Source: Brachyspira pilosicoli P43/6/78
Lineage (GTDB): Bacteria > Spirochaetota > Brachyspiria > Brachyspirales > Brachyspiraceae
Assembly: GCF_000325665.1 (NCBI RefSeq)
Contig: NC_019908.1
Span: 1,178,001-1,242,000 of the forward strand
Reading direction: 5' to 3'
Length of the DNA stretch: 64,000 nt
A program made the translations under genes and the position numbers. Positions 7,468 to 59,629 of this stretch are shown one piece after another (the first letter of the stretch is position 1; each line of letters opens with the position of its first letter). Under the pieces are notes generated by a model, which saw nothing but the letters and a program-made list of their open reading frames with translations, ran no database searches and was not told the origin of the DNA.

Positions 7468-8115
7468 TTACCTCACTCTAGCATCTATAGTTCTTTTGAT
7501 AGCTATTAATACTCCCAAAGTAAAGAAAGCACCAGGAGCTAATATCATAACAATCCAAGGAGTAGTAATTTCGTTATAAGCATTCAAAGCAAAAGGCATA
7601 GCAGATTCAACAAAACCTCTTACAGTTCCAACTATGTCAAATCCAAGCCAAGTACCATTACCTAAAATCTCTCTGATAGAACCTAATAATAATAAAGCCA
7701 TAAAGAAACCTACACCATTACCTAAAGCATCAAAAATACTAGGTATAACACCATTCTTATTAGCAAAAGCCTCTGCTCTTCCTAATATTATACAGTTTAC
7801 AACAATAAGCGGTATATATGGTCCTAATGCCAATGATAAAGTGTAAAACTTAGCCTTCATAACTATATCTGTTAAAGTTACAAAAGCAGCTATTACTACA
7901 ATGTATCCCATAATTCTTACTTCATTAGCATAAATCTTTTTTACTATAGAAATTAAAGCTGATGAACAAACAAGTACAAATATTGTAGCCACAGACATAC
8001 CAATGGCATTCATAACACTATTTGTTACTGCTAAGCTAGGACACATTCCAAGAATCTGTACGAAAGTAGGATTATTTTTCCATACTCCATCAATAAAGAT
8101 TTTAGAATTTTTCAT
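7468..8115 (-). CDS. rnfE: Rnf complex membrane subunit RnfE
   Basis: The 215-residue membrane protein is paralogous to RnfA. Visible signatures are NPTFVQILGMCPSLAVTN near residue 15 and LIVVNCIILGRAEAFA near residue 103. It begins the rnfEAB operon. In most bacteria the order is rnfCDGEAB, but here the next gene upstream is proB on the opposite strand. The genes for the NADH-side subunit RnfC and the flavin subunits RnfD and RnfG are therefore not in this cluster or anywhere in this window. Confidence 0.95.
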   Translation of the reverse strand: MKNSKIFIDGVWKNNPTFVQILGMCPSLAVTNSVMNAIGMSVATIFVLVCSSALISIVKKIYANEVRIMGYIVVIAAFVTLTDIVMKAKFYTLSLALGPYIPLIVVNCIILGRAEAFANKNGVIPSIFDALGNGVGFFMALLLLGSIREILGNGTWLGFDIVGTVRGFVESAMPFALNAYNEITTPWIVMILAPGAFFTLGVLIAIKRTIDARVR

Positions 8116-8285
8116 AATTAATTTAACCCTGATTTAATTAAGATTATTTTCTATTATTTTAACATATATAAGTATAATTTCAAGCACGAGCAAATAATTT
8201 ACTAAAATATAATTATCAATATTTTTTTACAATATTTTTAAATATTCATAATTATTAACTTTATTTTTTTTATTTTTTAATTATA

Positions 8286-51459: not shown

Positions 51460-52869
51460 TCAATTAGCTTTATTTTTTTTCTCTTTTTTGAACCTCTTAT
51501 AATCTTTTACAAGTGAGGATACAAGCGGACTTAATGCTAATATACCAAGAAGGTTAGGTATTACCATAAGCCCATTAAAACAGTCAGCCAAAGACCACAC
51601 CAAATCAACTTTAAGAGTAGAACCTATAAATATAAATACAACAACAACTAAAGCATATACTTTTGCAGCCTTCTGACCAAATAAATATTTAATATTCTGC
51701 TCGCCAAAGAAATACCAAGCAATAATTGTAGAGAATGCAAAGAATAGCAAACATAAAGCAATAAATATCACACCCACATGCCCAAATTTCATTTGAAAAG
51801 CACTCTGAGCCAAACCAATACCTTTTAAAGATTCAGATATTAAACTTGGAGATTCTAAGTTATAAACCTGATTTTCTAATATTCCAGAAGTAAGTATTAC
51901 TAATGCAGTTAATGTTAATACTATAAAAGTAAAGAATACTCCCATCATAGCAACAACACCCTGCTCGCAAGGATGATCAACTTTAGCAATAGCATGAGCA
52001 TGAGGAGTAGAACCCATACCAGCCTCATTTGAGAATAATCCTCTAGCTATACCAAAACGCATAGCCTGCTGTATTCCTATTCCTAAAGAACCTCCAATTA
52101 TAGCCTCTGGATTAAATGCTGATACAAATATCATATAAAAAGCATGAGGCACTTTTGTTATATTTAAAAGTATTAATATAATAGCACCAAGAAGATAAGA
52201 TATAGCCATAATAGGAACTATCTTCTCTGTAAATGAAGCTATTCTCTTAACACCGCCTAAAAATATAAATCCAGAAATAATAGCTACTATCACTCCTACA
52301 ACTTTGTTATTAACAGGAAAAGAATTAGAAAAGGCAGATGATATAGAATTAGACTGCACCATATTTCCCATTATTCCCAAAGCCAAAATAATAAGAACAG
52401 CAAACAAACCAGCTAAAAATTTACCAAAAGCCCCTTTGTAAGCAGCCTGTATATAATAGGCAGGTCCTCCTATCACTTGACCATCTTTATAAGTTTTAAA
52501 TTTCTGAGCTAATGTAGCTTCAGCAAATATTGTAGACATACCTAAAAAAGCAGATACCCACATCCAAAATATTGCCCCAGGTCCTCCAGAAACTAAAGCA
52601 GTAGCAGCCCCAGCCAAATTACCAGTACCAACCTGAGCAGCTATTGAAGTTGCTAAAGATTGGAAAGAACTCATACCATGCTCATCAGCAGCATTACCCT
52701 TTAAAGAAACAGAACCAAATGTTGACTTAAAGCTATCTTTAAACTCTCTTATCTGTATAAATCTTAATCGTATAGTAAAATAAAGCCCAGTACCGCATAA
52801 AAATATAAGTAATGTATAATCCCATAAAAATGAATTGATTCTTGAAACTAATTGTTCAATAAGATACAT
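51460..52869 (-). CDS. Sodium:alanine/glycine symporter family protein (AGCS), copy 1
   Basis: The 469-residue membrane protein has about eleven helices. The family core is visible: GTGNLAGAATALVSGGPGA, FWMWVSAFLGMSTIFAEA, and ARGLFSNEAGMGSTPHAHA. AGCS carriers import alanine and/or glycine with Na+. It is the downstream member of a tandem pair with the gene at 53090 and next to the glycine-reductase genes, so glycine uptake is a reasonable inference. A hairpin at 53026-53064 separates the pair. Confidence 0.92.
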   Translation of the reverse strand: MYLIEQLVSRINSFLWDYTLLIFLCGTGLYFTIRLRFIQIREFKDSFKSTFGSVSLKGNAADEHGMSSFQSLATSIAAQVGTGNLAGAATALVSGGPGAIFWMWVSAFLGMSTIFAEATLAQKFKTYKDGQVIGGPAYYIQAAYKGAFGKFLAGLFAVLIILALGIMGNMVQSNSISSAFSNSFPVNNKVVGVIVAIISGFIFLGGVKRIASFTEKIVPIMAISYLLGAIILILLNITKVPHAFYMIFVSAFNPEAIIGGSLGIGIQQAMRFGIARGLFSNEAGMGSTPHAHAIAKVDHPCEQGVVAMMGVFFTFIVLTLTALVILTSGILENQVYNLESPSLISESLKGIGLAQSAFQMKFGHVGVIFIALCLLFFAFSTIIAWYFFGEQNIKYLFGQKAAKVYALVVVVFIFIGSTLKVDLVWSLADCFNGLMVIPNLLGILALSPLVSSLVKDYKRFKKEKKNKAN

Positions 52870-53089: not shown

Positions 53090-54490
53090 TTATTTTTTAT
53101 TCAAATCATTATATTCTTTAAATAAAACACTAACAACACCACTCAAAGCTAAAAGACCTAAAAGGTTTGGTATAACCATTAAGCCGTTGAAAGTATCTAC
53201 TAAAGCCCATACTAAATCAACTTTTAAAGTTGAACCTAAAAGTACAAAGCCAACAACTAAAATAGCATAAATCTTAGCAGCTTTAACACCAAATAAATAT
53301 TTAATGTTTTGTTCACCAAAGAAATACCAACCTACTATAGTAGTGAAAGCAAAGAAGAATAAACATACAGCAACAAATATAACACCAAAGAAACCAAAAC
53401 CCATTCTGAAAGCTTCTTGAGGTAAACCAACACCTTTTAATGCTTCAGGTATAAGAGCAGCTGATTCTAAAGGATATATTTTAGTTTGTAATATGTCAGA
53501 AGTTAATATAACTAAAGCAGTTAAAGTAACAACAACAAATGTATCAAAGAATACACCTATCATAGCAACAACACCTTGTTCACAAGGGTGTTTAACTTTA
53601 GCTAAAGCGTGAGCATGAGGAGTAGAACCCATACCAGCTTCGTTAGAGAATAAACCACGAGCAACACCAAAACGCATAGCTTGTTGTATACCTATACCTA
53701 ATCCACCACCTATAACAGCTTGAGGATTAAAAGCAGCAGTAAATATTAAAGCTATAGAACTAGGAAGGTTTTTAATATTCATTATTATAATGATTACAGA
53801 ACCAATGATATAGAATAAAGCCATTATAGGTACTATTTTTTCTGTAAATGAAGCTATTCTTCTTAAACCGCCAATAAAGATGAAAGCAGATATTATAGCA
53901 CAAACTATACCAACATATATAGGTTTAATTTGAGGGAAAGCATTAACAAAAGCACCAGATATAGAGTTTGATTGAACCATATTACCCATAAAACCTAAAG
54001 CTAATATAATAAATATAGCAAATAAAGCAGCTAAAAATTTACCAAAAGCACCTTTATAAGCAGCAGTAATATAGTAAGCAGGTCCTCCTATAACATGGCC
54101 ATCTTCAGTAGTAGTTTTATATTTTTGACCTAAAGAAGCCTCAACAAATATAGTAGCCATACCAAAGAAAGCAGACACCCACATCCAAAATATAGCACCA
54201 GGACCGCCGGCAATTAAAGCAGTAGCAGCACCAGCTAAGTTACCAGTACCAACTTGAGCAGCAATTGCTGTTGCTAAAGATTGGAAAGAACTCATACCTT
54301 CTTTGTCAGCAGCTTTACCTTTTAAAGAAAGACTTCCAAAAGTTCTGTTCCAGCCATCTTTAAACTTTGCTATTTGTACGAATTTAAGTCTCAAAGTGAA
54401 ATAAATTCCACTACCGCATAGCATGATTATCAATAGATAATCCCATAAAATGCTGTTTACCTTTGCTACTATGTTTGAAATAACATCCAT
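53090..54490 (-). CDS. Sodium:alanine/glycine symporter family protein (AGCS), copy 2
   Basis: The 466-residue paralogue of the gene at 51460 is very similar along its whole length (same GTGNLAGAATALIAGGPGA and ARGLFSNEAGMGSTPHAHA blocks). It differs in codon choice: where copy 1 uses TGC/CAG/GAG, this copy prefers TGT/CAA/GAA. That more uniform A/T-ending usage is typical of strongly expressed genes in AT-rich bacteria. It lies directly downstream of grdD, separated by a terminator. It probably supplies glycine for reduction. Confidence 0.92.
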   Translation of the reverse strand: MDVISNIVAKVNSILWDYLLIIMLCGSGIYFTLRLKFVQIAKFKDGWNRTFGSLSLKGKAADKEGMSSFQSLATAIAAQVGTGNLAGAATALIAGGPGAIFWMWVSAFFGMATIFVEASLGQKYKTTTEDGHVIGGPAYYITAAYKGAFGKFLAALFAIFIILALGFMGNMVQSNSISGAFVNAFPQIKPIYVGIVCAIISAFIFIGGLRRIASFTEKIVPIMALFYIIGSVIIIIMNIKNLPSSIALIFTAAFNPQAVIGGGLGIGIQQAMRFGVARGLFSNEAGMGSTPHAHALAKVKHPCEQGVVAMIGVFFDTFVVVTLTALVILTSDILQTKIYPLESAALIPEALKGVGLPQEAFRMGFGFFGVIFVAVCLFFFAFTTIVGWYFFGEQNIKYLFGVKAAKIYAILVVGFVLLGSTLKVDLVWALVDTFNGLMVIPNLLGLLALSGVVSVLFKEYNDLNKK

Positions 54491-54628: not shown

Positions 54629-55798
54629 CTAAGATATAAATCCGCCTTTTCTCAAAATATTTTCTGCATTTTCTTTATTTTTATCACTAACCAATATGAT
54701 AGGTCCAGTACAACCCATACCAGACTCAGCATATATACCATTTTCCATAACTAACTCTACAGCCGCATCCAAGTCCATAACCTCAACGCCAGGAATCTGA
54801 GCAGTTACAACTTCTTTAGCAACAGTAGGTTTAGCTTTTTCAGTAACTGAAGAAGCCTTAGGTTTTAAGCTTTCTAATATAGCATCAAAACCATATTTTT
54901 TTACTTCCTCTTCTTCTTTGTTCATAACATCTATTATATTGCCGCTAATACACTGATAAGCATACTCAATAGCACCAGCAATAACATTAGAACCAGAAGC
55001 TCTAGAAATAATGAATATTGGAGTTTTAAATCCAAATCCTATACCAGGACCATATCCATAACCTATAGCCTCATAGCTTCCGCCGCTATTGAATGATGAG
55101 AACATTTTTATAAGAATGTTTCCAGTAAGAGAATCGCAAACTACAACATCAACAGCACCAGTAATAAGGTCATTACCTCTTAATACCGCACCGCCGTCAG
55201 CACGATTAGAAGAACCGAATTTAATATTGTAGCCATTAGAAGCAAGCTCTTTTAAAGCTCTCTCAACAGTACGAGCAGAGTCAATATTTAATATACCAAC
55301 AGTAGGCTCTTTTATACCGCAAGCTTTAGCTGTGATAATACCATAAATGGCATTTTTAAACATAGCCTGGTCTCTAACAGTAGCAGAAGTACCAGTAGTA
55401 GTAGCAATAAAAGTTTCTTTACCATTAGCCTGAGAAATAACTCTTCCAACAGTTGATACTCCTATAGGGAAAGGATAATGCATAGTAACACAAGCATCTA
55501 ACTCTCCTTTAGCAAGCATCTCTTCCATTATTTTATGAGCTTTTTCATCGCAATCAGTTTCTATTGTTTGAAGACCAGTAGAGTTTTTTTCACCAATCAA
55601 AACAACTTCAACATTTTTGTTTCTCTTCATAGCTATTACGCCGCCAAGAGATACAGCTTCTGCACCATGCTCAGAACCTCTATTTGTTATACCAACGCGA
55701 ACCTTCTTACCAAATTGACCAGTTTCCAAAGCATTAGCAAGAGAGAGAAAAGTCTCCCCTATCATAGATTTTATAGCTGAATTAGAAGCATCACTCAT
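54629..55798 (-). CDS. grdD: Glycine reductase component C, small subunit GrdD
   Basis: GrdD with GrdC forms component C, which releases acetyl phosphate from the acetyl-thioester produced when glycine is reduced. The 389-residue protein resembles the PlsX/phosphotransacetylase-like fold: NRGSEHGAEAVSLGGVIAM, FIATTTGTSATVRDQAMF, and the C-terminal ESGMGCTGPIILV whose Cys363 corresponds to the acyl-carrying Cys of GrdD. AGGAGG lies before the ATG at 55798, so the upstream extension to 55819 is rejected. That ribosome site overlaps the stop of the grdE-grdC fusion. Confidence 0.95.
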   Translation of the reverse strand: MSDASNSAIKSMIGETFLSLANALETGQFGKKVRVGITNRGSEHGAEAVSLGGVIAMKRNKNVEVVLIGEKNSTGLQTIETDCDEKAHKIMEEMLAKGELDACVTMHYPFPIGVSTVGRVISQANGKETFIATTTGTSATVRDQAMFKNAIYGIITAKACGIKEPTVGILNIDSARTVERALKELASNGYNIKFGSSNRADGGAVLRGNDLITGAVDVVVCDSLTGNILIKMFSSFNSGGSYEAIGYGYGPGIGFGFKTPIFIISRASGSNVIAGAIEYAYQCISGNIIDVMNKEEEEVKKYGFDAILESLKPKASSVTEKAKPTVAKEVVTAQIPGVEVMDLDAAVELVMENGIYAESGMGCTGPIILVSDKNKENAENILRKGGFIS

Positions 55799-55811
55799 AT
55801 ATAATACCTCC

Positions 55812-58001
55812 TTATTCACCTAACATGCTTTTAGCAAAATCTCTCATAGCATTAGCAATAAGTTTATTAACTTCTTCTTTAGAAACACCTTCGCCAGTGC
55901 CTTTATCACCATTATTTTTTTCTATAATAACAGATATACCATCAAAAAGGTTAGTCATTCTTCCTAAGAAAAGTGAACCTTTACCTATAAGCATTATGCG
56001 GTTAATTTTACCAGCCATAATGTCTTCAATAGCATAACCCAAATAAGGCACACCAGAAGGAATATGTCCTTGAGTAGGAGCCCAACCAGACATACCATGC
56101 TTTTCAACAAACTCTGCTAATTGACTTCTCTCAATATCACCCTTCTTAACACCAATAGCAGCTATCATTTTGTAATTAGCCTCAGGTACATCACCAGCAC
56201 CAGCAGGTTTAGTAACATCAGGGTTTTGCATCTCAACAGTATATTTATCTATATCAGTAACTTTTAAGTTTGCTTTTTCTAAAGGATTAACTACCAAAGA
56301 GTTCATAACAGCCTGAGGAGCAGAACCTGTAGCAACAGTGTGTCTTCCAAGTACATCAGTTCTAATAATTGGGTGTACTCCGTCATTTTCACTGATAAGT
56401 ACAGCAAAAGCACCAAGTATATCTTCTATAATAGGAAGATTTTTAGTTACATGGCTTTTACCATTCATACCCAATTTAGCAGTAGCACCGCCTGCAACTA
56501 TTACAACATTTTTATAAGAACCAGCTTTTACTAATGAAGCAGCTGTTACTAAAGCATGTGAAGGAGCAGCACAGAAACCTCTAATATCAAAACCAGTAGC
56601 ATTTGGTATACCAGCAATTTCTGCAACACTCTTAGCAAAGTTACCGCCGCCTCTTTGGTTCATATCACCGCAAGCCTCTTCAGAACATTCTATTACTAAA
56701 TCAATACTGCTAGGATCAACATTTTTCTTTCTAATAAGTTCTTTTAAAGCCATAACACCAGAAGCTTTAACTGCTAAGTTTTCAAAAATAACATGAGCAC
56801 TCAAGTTAATATCAACATCATGAGCTCTTTTTACACAACCAACTAATTTTTCATTGAAGTATAAACCCTCAGCTTTTGGTAAGTTAATAACTATATTAGC
56901 ATTACCAGCTGTTACTGTAGCATTAGCTGATACATCTGAATCTGCTAAAGACTGAGATGAACCGTCTCTACCAGCATATTCATCTGTGATAATACAAGTT
57001 TTAATTCCGAATGCTTCTGCTTTTCTGCAGTTCATTATTAAGTCAGCATCTGGGTTACCAAATCCTTCTTCAGAGATGATTACTGCATCTAATCCGAAAT
57101 ATTTAGCTAATTTTGATGCCCAATCTGATGAACGCATCTTATCTGCTAAGAATACGTTTTCATTTGTTATAATAACGCCCATAAAGTTAATATCTTTACC
57201 ATGTTTTTCATATAAAGCTTTAATTACAGGGTTATTTAAGTGGTGATAAGTAGTGTTTTTATCGCAAGCTGATACACAGTTACCGCTTACAATAGCACCG
57301 TCCATAACTTCTGTTGGATAAATAAATGTTGGAACTATTTTCTTAGCATCAACACCATAAACATAAGTATCATGTAATAAGCCTTGTGTTTGAAGCATGT
57401 ATACATAACCTACTTTTGGTAAATTAGGATACATTGCAGCTTGTTCAAATATAGGTTTAGTTTCATAAGTGAAAGTTTTGTCAGCTTTTACTTCTTTAGC
57501 CAATTGACCTAAATAAGTAGCAACTTTTAAACCTGCACCTCTTACAGCAGCTTCATAATCATGTTTTTCTAAATTGTCTACTGGCTCTATAACTAAACAT
57601 AAATTATTAAGCTTAGAGAATGGTGTATAATCAGCACCAGGACCAGACATGTCAATGATACCTTCTTGGAAACCAACTATTTTACCACAAGTAACAACAG
57701 CAGCACCTTTCAATACATTAGTTTTACCCTCACCTACTGTATCTACTTTAGATATCATTCCAGGGAATACTCCGCCTTTGCCTTCTACTTTTACTCTAGG
57801 CTCTATAACATCTTTTACAGGTGTTATACGAACAGATTCTCCCGGACGAGCTACATCAATTTTTACACTTTTCAACTTGTCGTCTTCAAGTACCATCTTT
57901 GTAATCTCATCAACGTTTACATAGAGTACTCCATTCTCGACTTTTGAAATTTTGTCAAGTTTTATATCTTTAATATAAATCTCGCCTAACTCTAACTTCA
58001 T
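55812..58001 (-). CDS. GrdE-GrdC fusion: glycine reductase component B N-terminal part joined to component C large subunit
   Basis: One 729-residue frame contains two grd proteins. Residues 1-~375 match GrdE (component B substrate protein): ARPGESVRITPVKDVIEPRV, FQEGIIDMSGPGADYTPFSK, and the self-cleavage site SGNCVSACDKNTTYHH, where Cys242 would become the pyruvoyl group. Residues ~376-729 match the C-terminal two thirds of GrdC, a thiolase-like protein: SEEACGDMNQRGGGNFAKS, VVIVAGGATAKLGMNGK and GWAPTQGHIPSGVPYLG. Missing are ~50 residues of GrdE, all of grdA and grdB, and ~160 residues of GrdC, exactly what lies between the two points in the usual grdE-A-B-C-D order. Either a precise deletion or an assembly collapse made it. 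Confidence 0.9.
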   Translation of the reverse strand: MKLELGEIYIKDIKLDKISKVENGVLYVNVDEITKMVLEDDKLKSVKIDVARPGESVRITPVKDVIEPRVKVEGKGGVFPGMISKVDTVGEGKTNVLKGAAVVTCGKIVGFQEGIIDMSGPGADYTPFSKLNNLCLVIEPVDNLEKHDYEAAVRGAGLKVATYLGQLAKEVKADKTFTYETKPIFEQAAMYPNLPKVGYVYMLQTQGLLHDTYVYGVDAKKIVPTFIYPTEVMDGAIVSGNCVSACDKNTTYHHLNNPVIKALYEKHGKDINFMGVIITNENVFLADKMRSSDWASKLAKYFGLDAVIISEEGFGNPDADLIMNCRKAEAFGIKTCIITDEYAGRDGSSQSLADSDVSANATVTAGNANIVINLPKAEGLYFNEKLVGCVKRAHDVDINLSAHVIFENLAVKASGVMALKELIRKKNVDPSSIDLVIECSEEACGDMNQRGGGNFAKSVAEIAGIPNATGFDIRGFCAAPSHALVTAASLVKAGSYKNVVIVAGGATAKLGMNGKSHVTKNLPIIEDILGAFAVLISENDGVHPIIRTDVLGRHTVATGSAPQAVMNSLVVNPLEKANLKVTDIDKYTVEMQNPDVTKPAGAGDVPEANYKMIAAIGVKKGDIERSQLAEFVEKHGMSGWAPTQGHIPSGVPYLGYAIEDIMAGKINRIMLIGKGSLFLGRMTNLFDGISVIIEKNNGDKGTGEGVSKEEVNKLIANAMRDFAKSMLGE

Positions 58002-58027: not shown

Positions 58028-58189
58028 TTATTTATAAATATAAGTTATAAGCAATAAAAAAAGAGCAGAAGCATATAAAAATATGCTGCCACTCTTAAAT
58101 TTAAATAAAAACAATTTAATCCCTGATAAATTTATCCCTAGAAAAGCAAACAATGCAATAATACCGCTATAAATAGAATATTCATTCAT
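58028..58189 (-). CDS. Possible 53-residue membrane miniprotein
   Basis: A short frame from ATG at 58189 to TAA at 58028 encodes two hydrophobic stretches (YSGIIALFAFLGINL and SIFLYASALFLLLITYIY) joined by a short Lys-containing loop. It sits between trxB and the grd fusion, where trxA is often found, but it is not thioredoxin. There is no clear ribosome-binding site, and the frame overlaps a terminator-like hairpin, so it may not be a gene. Confidence 0.25.
   Translation of the reverse strand: MNEYSIYSGIIALFAFLGINLSGIKLFLFKFKSGSIFLYASALFLLLITYIYK
58053..58096 (-). terminator. Hairpin with T run between trxB and the grd fusion
   Basis: AAGAG and GCATAT (58061-58076) pair with ATATGC and CTCTT (58081-58096), with an internal bulge and loop AAAA. 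On the minus strand it runs into seven T. It would end the grdX-trxB transcript before the fusion gene. Confidence 0.6.
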
Positions 58190-58272
58190 TGCAACGCAAG
58201 AGATATTTTTTACTCAGCCTTTAAATTTTATCATATACAAATTGTTTCCTTTAATTAAATAATCTTAAATAA

Positions 58273-59229
58273 TCAAGAATAATGTTCTTCTATATATTTG
58301 TTAGCAGAAATACCAGCTATAGCACCATCAGCTGTAGCAGTAATAACCTGTTTAAGCATTTTTGGTCTTAAATCTCCGCAAGCAAATACACCCTCAACAT
58401 TTGTTTTCATCTCTTCATCTGTAATAATGAAACCGTCTTTCATTTCTACTTTACCTTCAAACAATTTTGTGAGAGGAACATAACCAACAAATATAAATAC
58501 ACCAAATGTGCCGTCTTCTTCATCTGCTTTATATTCATAAGTCTCACCTGTTTCATTATTTAAGAATATTGCAGACTCAACTATTCCATCACCTTTAAGC
58601 TCTAAAAGCTCAGTTCTAAATTTTATTTCAATTTTAGGATTAGCTTTAGCTTTTTCTTCTATAGAGTTAGCACAACGAACATAATCTTTTCTTACTATCA
58701 AAGTTACCTTTCTAGCAAATTTAGATAAGTACATAGCTTCTTCTACAGCAGTATCTCCTCCGCCTATACAGAAAACTTCCATACCTTCAAAGAAGTTAGC
58801 ATCGCAAGTAGCACAATAAGAAACACCCTTACCAGTGTATTCTAATTCACCCTTACAACCTAATTTTCTAGGCTGAGCACCTGTAGCAATTATTACAGTC
58901 TTTGATGTATAAACTTCTCCGTCAGCAGTTTTAACTTCTTTAACCTTGCCGTCTAATTTCACATCAACTACTTCTTTATGCTCTATTTCAGCACCAAAAG
59001 CTTTAGCCTGTTCTATCATTTTACCAATAAGATTTTTAGGATGTCTTGCCTCTTCATCTGGCTCATAAAAACCAGGATAATTAGCAATCTCATCAGTAAT
59101 ACTAATCTGTCCGCCAAAACTAGCCTTCTCAAAAAGAATAGTCTTTAATCTAGCTCTAGCAGAATAAACTCCAGCAGCCAAACCAGATGGTCCGCCGCCT
59201 ATTATAATACAATCATATAAATTACTCAT
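58273..59229 (-). CDS. trxB: Thioredoxin reductase
   Basis: TrxB passes electrons from NADPH through FAD to thioredoxin, which in turn feeds glycine reductase. The 318-residue protein has the FAD motif GGGPSGLAAG near residue 11, the redox pair CATC (residues ~138-141) in SYCATCDANFFEG, the NADPH motif GGGDTAVEEA and the C-terminal FACGDLRPKM. It is complete. It lies 22 bases after grdX, in the order seen at clostridial grd loci (grdX-trxB-trxA), but no trxA follows. Confidence 0.95.
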   Translation of the reverse strand: MSNLYDCIIIGGGPSGLAAGVYSARARLKTILFEKASFGGQISITDEIANYPGFYEPDEEARHPKNLIGKMIEQAKAFGAEIEHKEVVDVKLDGKVKEVKTADGEVYTSKTVIIATGAQPRKLGCKGELEYTGKGVSYCATCDANFFEGMEVFCIGGGDTAVEEAMYLSKFARKVTLIVRKDYVRCANSIEEKAKANPKIEIKFRTELLELKGDGIVESAIFLNNETGETYEYKADEEDGTFGVFIFVGYVPLTKLFEGKVEMKDGFIITDEEMKTNVEGVFACGDLRPKMLKQVITATADGAIAGISANKYIEEHYS

Positions 59230-59251: not shown

Positions 59252-59629
59252 CTACAAAATATTTTCTATTGCTCCAATAACTAATTTATAATCTATTAAT
59301 CTAAAATCTTCATCAATTTCTTTTGTTAATTTTCTTCTTGGTTTATCCAAAAAGTTTTTTGTAAGCTCAATGGCATTCTCTATTAATTCTAGAGAATATA
59401 AATCCAATTCTGAACCTTTAGACAAAGCAACGCTTTTGTATGGAGTTTCATAAGGTTTTATACTACTAACTATAGGATGAGTTAATAATTGATAACCTGA
59501 ATGTACGAAATCTCTAACTTTACAAAGAACTTCCATAAAATCTGAGTCTGACATATAAATTATTTCTGCATTCTTACTTCTTACTTGTTCAAAAATCTTT
59601 GGATTATTGGTTACAACAATACAATTCAT
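59252..59629 (-). CDS. grdX: GrdX protein
   Basis: GrdX is a small protein of unknown function found at the head of glycine, sarcosine and betaine reductase operons. The 125-residue sequence matches the family pattern: CIVVTNNPKIFEQV at the start, VRDFVHSGYQLLTHPI in the middle and SLELIENAIELTKNFL near the end. Its presence upstream of trxB and the grd genes identifies the locus as a true glycine-reductase cluster. It is the first gene of the run. Confidence 0.85.
   Translation of the reverse strand: MNCIVVTNNPKIFEQVRSKNAEIIYMSDSDFMEVLCKVRDFVHSGYQLLTHPIVSSIKPYETPYKSVALSKGSELDLYSLELIENAIELTKNFLDKPRRKLTKEIDEDFRLIDYKLVIGAIENIL

Follow-up and report, generated by a model that had tools for sequence, protein, structure and literature searches.

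Organization of the locus

Glycine reductase requires three parts: protein B (GrdB with GrdE); GrdA, which is a selenoprotein; and protein C (GrdC with GrdD), which forms acetyl phosphate (PMC9908766). The window analyzed here, a 64,000-nucleotide stretch of the Brachyspira pilosicoli P43/6/78T genome, carries on its minus strand a single frame of 729 codons (58001..55812), starting with ATG and free of internal stops, that passes from GrdE into GrdC. Its N-terminal half (56874..58001) consists of grdE codons 1–376, the last ~52 codons being deleted, and its C-terminal half (55812..56873) holds the last 353 residues of GrdC and the stop codon, the first 176 codons being deleted. In profile searches, residues 1–379 match the Pfam family Gly_reductase (PF09338, E 1.4e-189), and residues 365–697 match NF040746, the NCBIfam model of the component C beta subunit, from its position 145 to its end at 477. 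Both matches, together with the frame itself, bear out the first-pass annotation of this DNA, which had described a single 729-residue GrdE-to-GrdC frame with an Asn241-Cys242 cleavage site. It had placed the switch near residue 375, at about base 56880; the passage is indeed without a break, and its exact point lies between bases 56874 and 56873, or residues 376 and 377.

The GrdE half retains the pyruvoyl cleavage site, with Cys242 directly after Asn241 in the motif SGNC. In C. difficile GrdE, the pyruvoyl group is carried at the position corresponding to Cys242 (PMC9908766). At its C-terminus the domain lacks profile positions 380–425, and P43/6/78T thus encodes no full-length GrdE proprotein: the site is kept and the domain end is gone. 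The AlphaFold model of the fusion has a mean pLDDT of 54, too low for use, with the mixed alignment partly at fault.

The fusion is flanked by intact genes, all on the minus strand: grdD, encoding the component C alpha subunit (54629..55819), trxB, encoding thioredoxin reductase (58273..59229), and grdX (59252..59629). The order grdX, trxB, grdE ... grdD is that of the Clostridium sticklandii and Brachyspira operons (for example BP951000_1852-1860 in strain 95/1000), with which the P43/6/78T locus also shares the GrdE Cys242 pyruvoyl site and the same sequences up to the breakpoints. It differs from them in that grdE and grdC are fused and grdA and grdB are absent. The Brachyspira locus in turn differs in having no trxA. 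The order expected at first, grdX-trxB-trxA-grdE-grdA-grdB-grdC-grdD, therefore holds for the grd genes but not for trxA, which does not stand between trxB and grdE in the Brachyspira operon and so did not belong to the lost block. Downstream of grdD lie two tandem sodium:alanine/glycine-type symporter genes (51460-52869 and 53090-54490, minus strand), whose frames are both still open despite the loss of glycine reductase; the same pair has been reported for strain 95/1000 (PMC2897892).

Comparison with relatives

Wherever the operon is fully assembled in another Brachyspira genome, grdE (428 codons), grdA, grdB, and grdC (528 codons) are separate genes, and grdA contains one in-frame TGA. The closest relative (G001, 97–98% nucleotide identity) aligns without gaps up to and beyond a single breakpoint: the alignment reaches window position 56874 and restarts at 56873, and at this junction G001 holds exactly 2,760 bp extra, comprising the end of grdE, grdA, grdB, and the start of grdC. 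The breakpoints share no bases (0 bp of microhomology), and repeats within 150 bp of them do not exceed 9 bp. The queries that recover the lost block in G001 and in a second relative, G014, find no copy elsewhere in the 2,555,556-bp P43/6/78T genome. Nor does this genome have any match to PF04723 (GrdA, present with one TGA in 11 relatives) or to PF07355 (GrdB, present in 13 relatives). Alignment and whole-genome search thus confirm the earlier proposal that a single contiguous block, which included both selenoprotein genes, was lost, its length rising from the ~2.4 kb first estimated to the 2,760 bp measured. The genome-wide search suggested at the same time recovered no copy of grdA, grdB, or any other part of the block, and found selA, selB, selD, and tRNA-Sec all retained.

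The 61 other loci in which both genes occur contain no further GrdE::GrdC fusion, and the junction pattern has no match among the GTDB species genomes. A check across other Brachyspira genomes and strains, also suggested by the first-pass annotation, went against the fusion: no other genome searched has it, and published work places an unfused locus in three strains, with nine separate genes in 95/1000 and the locus identified in B2904 and WesB (PMC2897892, PMC3532143). The fusion is therefore not a feature of B. pilosicoli as a species. In its two halves taken together, a single amino-acid change can be placed unambiguously on the branch leading to P43; this makes the event recent and is no proof of selection on the fusion.

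Origin of the junction

These observations make it probable that a single recent in-frame deletion of 2,760 bp took place in the line leading to the P43/6/78T stock that was sequenced, turning an ordinary operon into a dead remnant. The ancestral arrangement would have been grdX-trxB-leader-grdE-grdA-grdB-grdC-grdD, encoding an ordinary glycine reductase; illegitimate joining, with no homology, inside grdE and grdC would then have left the 729-residue frame as an accidental product. Several features sit uneasily with such a remnant. The junction is exactly in frame, 2,760 being a multiple of three (a one in three chance), both halves look well conserved, as expected of a functional gene, and deletions without microhomology are unusual.

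Could the junction instead be a product of the assembly? The strain would then have an intact operon, and the 2.76 kb would have been lost during assembly or gap closure of the 454 contigs in the 2013 genome. That genome was built from 454 reads with Newbler 2.0, its 19 scaffolds being closed by PCR and manual assembly (PMC3587939), and the fusion's absence from every other genome and strain compared fits an error of this kind. The joint, however, offers no repeat or overlap on which an assembler could collapse, coverage was ~38-fold, and a comparison of the window with G014 revealed no other blunt gap of this kind nearby, over only ~11 kb of collinear sequence. Since a collapse during overlap assembly needs a repeat, a real deletion is favored, and the sequence suggests that the DNA that was read truly carried it. 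The collapsed assembly named as the main rival by the first-pass annotation is weakened accordingly by the lack of any repeat or microhomology, and an error of closure keeps a small but real share of the probability.

Consequences for glycine reduction

GrdA, the selenoprotein carrier, and GrdB, the catalytic selenoprotein, would both be gone from the cell, and component C is incomplete, with GrdD intact and GrdC lacking residues 1–176. This lost part of GrdC contains 21 columns that are invariant among 25 homologues, and for the intact protein its predicted structure is of high confidence. Without GrdA, GrdB, and GrdC residues 1–176, the conversion of glycine to acetyl phosphate would be impossible, which most likely makes the locus a dead remnant. 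The GrdE part may still cleave itself at Cys242, but the fusion product is presumably inactive.

The opposite reading, raised by the first-pass annotation, is a remodeled and functional protein in which component C is linked to a self-cleaving GrdE piece and works without selenium. The intact frame, the kept cleavage site, the retained thiolase-like core with its cysteine, and the little divergence all agree with it. It is nevertheless very improbable: the fusion is confined to one strain and has no counterpart in the loci and GTDB species genomes searched, both obligate partner proteins and the 21 invariant GrdC positions are gone, and the genes for selenocysteine insertion are kept. That these genes persist says nothing for the fusion, because Brachyspira species without a grd operon also keep them and other selenoproteins exist in B. 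pilosicoli (PMC2897892). Two proteome papers on B. pilosicoli name no grd protein in their main text.

The type-strain genome is thus without glycine reductase, while three other sequenced strains have the locus, and work on P43/6/78T may therefore misjudge the species' use of glycine. The value of the fusion is one of caution; alone, it is most likely a clean strain-specific loss-of-function deletion. The leader of the same operon, which lies outside the fusion, would matter more.

A UGA-containing leader upstream of grdE

The 271-bp spacer between trxB and grdE is conserved in the pilosicoli group and recognizable further away. It contains a short leader ORF (58028..58234, minus strand) with an in-frame UGA at 58216-58214, which would reach 68 codons if this UGA were read as selenocysteine and which occupies the same place in the other leaders (L002-L012). 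The ORF begins MIKFKG-UGA-VKNISCVAMNEYSIYSG..., and fourteen bases past the UGA starts a SECIS-like hairpin, TTGC-GTT-GCAA (UGA and hairpin together at 58189..58216, minus strand). This spacing is that of grdB: in the same genomes, the grdB selenocysteine site reads TGA-N14-TTGCGGTGCAA, arranged as in the leader. A whole-genome search of 26 Brachyspira genomes for TGA-N14-TTGCGNNGCAA gave 32 matches, each of them either a grdB site or a leader (the latter in 12 genomes); genomes without grd gave none, and neither did a reversed control pattern. In 12 genomes, then, a hairpin just downstream of the leader UGA resembles that of grdB, a proven selenoprotein gene. The leader stem has only 4 bp, and in the pilosicoli group the loop is GUU instead of GGU (fold z 0.35), so that the P43 copy of the leader may be weak.

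The leader is missing in G009, the most divergent genome, and a survey of 74 loci, almost all from outside Brachyspira, yielded only scattered, chance-like candidates for analogous UGA leaders upstream of grdE. No relevant Rfam match points to a known riboswitch upstream of grdE.

Just before grdE, a hairpin followed by a T run (58061..58096, minus strand) has the form of an intrinsic terminator, and its 5′ arm lies within the leader ORF. Past the UGA, the frame stays open for 147–186 bases in 11 genomes and up to grdE in G021, so that in 12 of 12 genomes, representing about five separate lineages, a short ORF enters or crosses the T-run hairpin ahead of the operon. The distances from UGA to terminator take five values (90, 120, 129, 141, and 144), all multiples of three. 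By Markov shuffles, a frame that stays open between the SECIS-like hairpin and the terminator has a chance of ~0.02–0.15 per sequence. The terminator hairpin region of P43/6/78T folds with a z of -4.4. Across 11 genomes, all 500 shuffles fall below it both in covariation score and in the number of cells with changes on both sides; the count of pairs with such changes is not outstanding, and a scan with a terminator consensus did not pick out this hairpin. Around the UGA, the peptide is conserved in its first part. After the SECIS-like hairpin it is not, with differences spread evenly over the codon positions and nonsynonymous changes far exceeding synonymous ones. The peptide matches no Pfam or NCBIfam family.

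A possible selenium switch

From this arrangement of sequence elements, we lean toward a selenocysteine-sensing transcription attenuator, by which the operon would be transcribed only when charged Sec-tRNA is available. With selenium, SelB and the hairpin would have the leader UGA decoded as selenocysteine; the ribosome, once past it, would move into the 5′ arm of the terminator, which could then not form, and grdE-grdA-grdB-grdC-grdD would be transcribed. Without selenium, translation would stop at the UGA, the terminator hairpin would form, and transcription would end. Occupancy of the 5′ arm by the ribosome would suffice, and no anti-terminator would be needed. An operon requiring two selenoproteins would in this way be tied to the selenium supply; in P43/6/78T, the switch would now precede only the fusion remnant.

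If the leader is real, it is possible, though less to be expected, that the UGA-containing ORF is simply a small selenoprotein gene, or that the hairpin is an untranslated SelB-binding control site. In favor of these readings stand the conserved first part of the peptide and the SECIS-based autoregulation that E. coli has for SelB (Thanbichler and Bock 2002, cited in PMC8124441). Against them, the peptide is not conserved past the hairpin and matches no Pfam or NCBIfam family, and an untranslated hairpin would need neither a frame open into the terminator in all 12 leaders nor UGA-to-terminator distances in multiples of three.

The proposed attenuator would share with trpL, ivbL, and hisL of E. 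coli a short upstream ORF that overlaps an intrinsic terminator, translation of the leader deciding termination. It would differ from them in its sensing codon, a UGA decoded as selenocysteine through a SECIS of its own, and in its positive logic, by which available selenocysteine turns the operon on. With the E. coli SelB case, as PMC8124441 cites it, it has in common the control of expression by a SECIS-type hairpin; the Brachyspira hairpin differs from that case in lying behind a UGA within an ORF that has a start codon, with the spacing of grdB and a terminator downstream. No selenocysteine leader attenuator was found in the open-access literature; the nearest known case that can be named is this SelB autoregulation. 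If the reading is true, a selenoprotein operon gated through attenuation by a leader with a UGA and a SECIS would amount to direct genetic sensing of selenium by a bacterium.

Operon loss and second grd genes in the genus

Loss of the grd operon is recurrent in Brachyspira. A clade of 11 species has none of grdA, grdB, grdX, and grdD. In G041, a sister species within the pilosicoli group, the locus has been lost from the upstream permease gene through most of grdD, leaving two short grdD shreds between the flanking genes (L087, G041:C50:20000-30486, ~7807-8177); this loss is independent of the P43 deletion. A second GrdE-like gene, 64–67% identical, occurs in six Brachyspira genomes (G021:C1:1226239, G015:C8:162265, G022:C19:6138, G018:C2:448552, G006:C96:10019, and G002:C235:5628), next to a second GrdB and not far from a GrdX. 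This second GrdE/GrdB set possibly serves another substrate, such as sarcosine or betaine.
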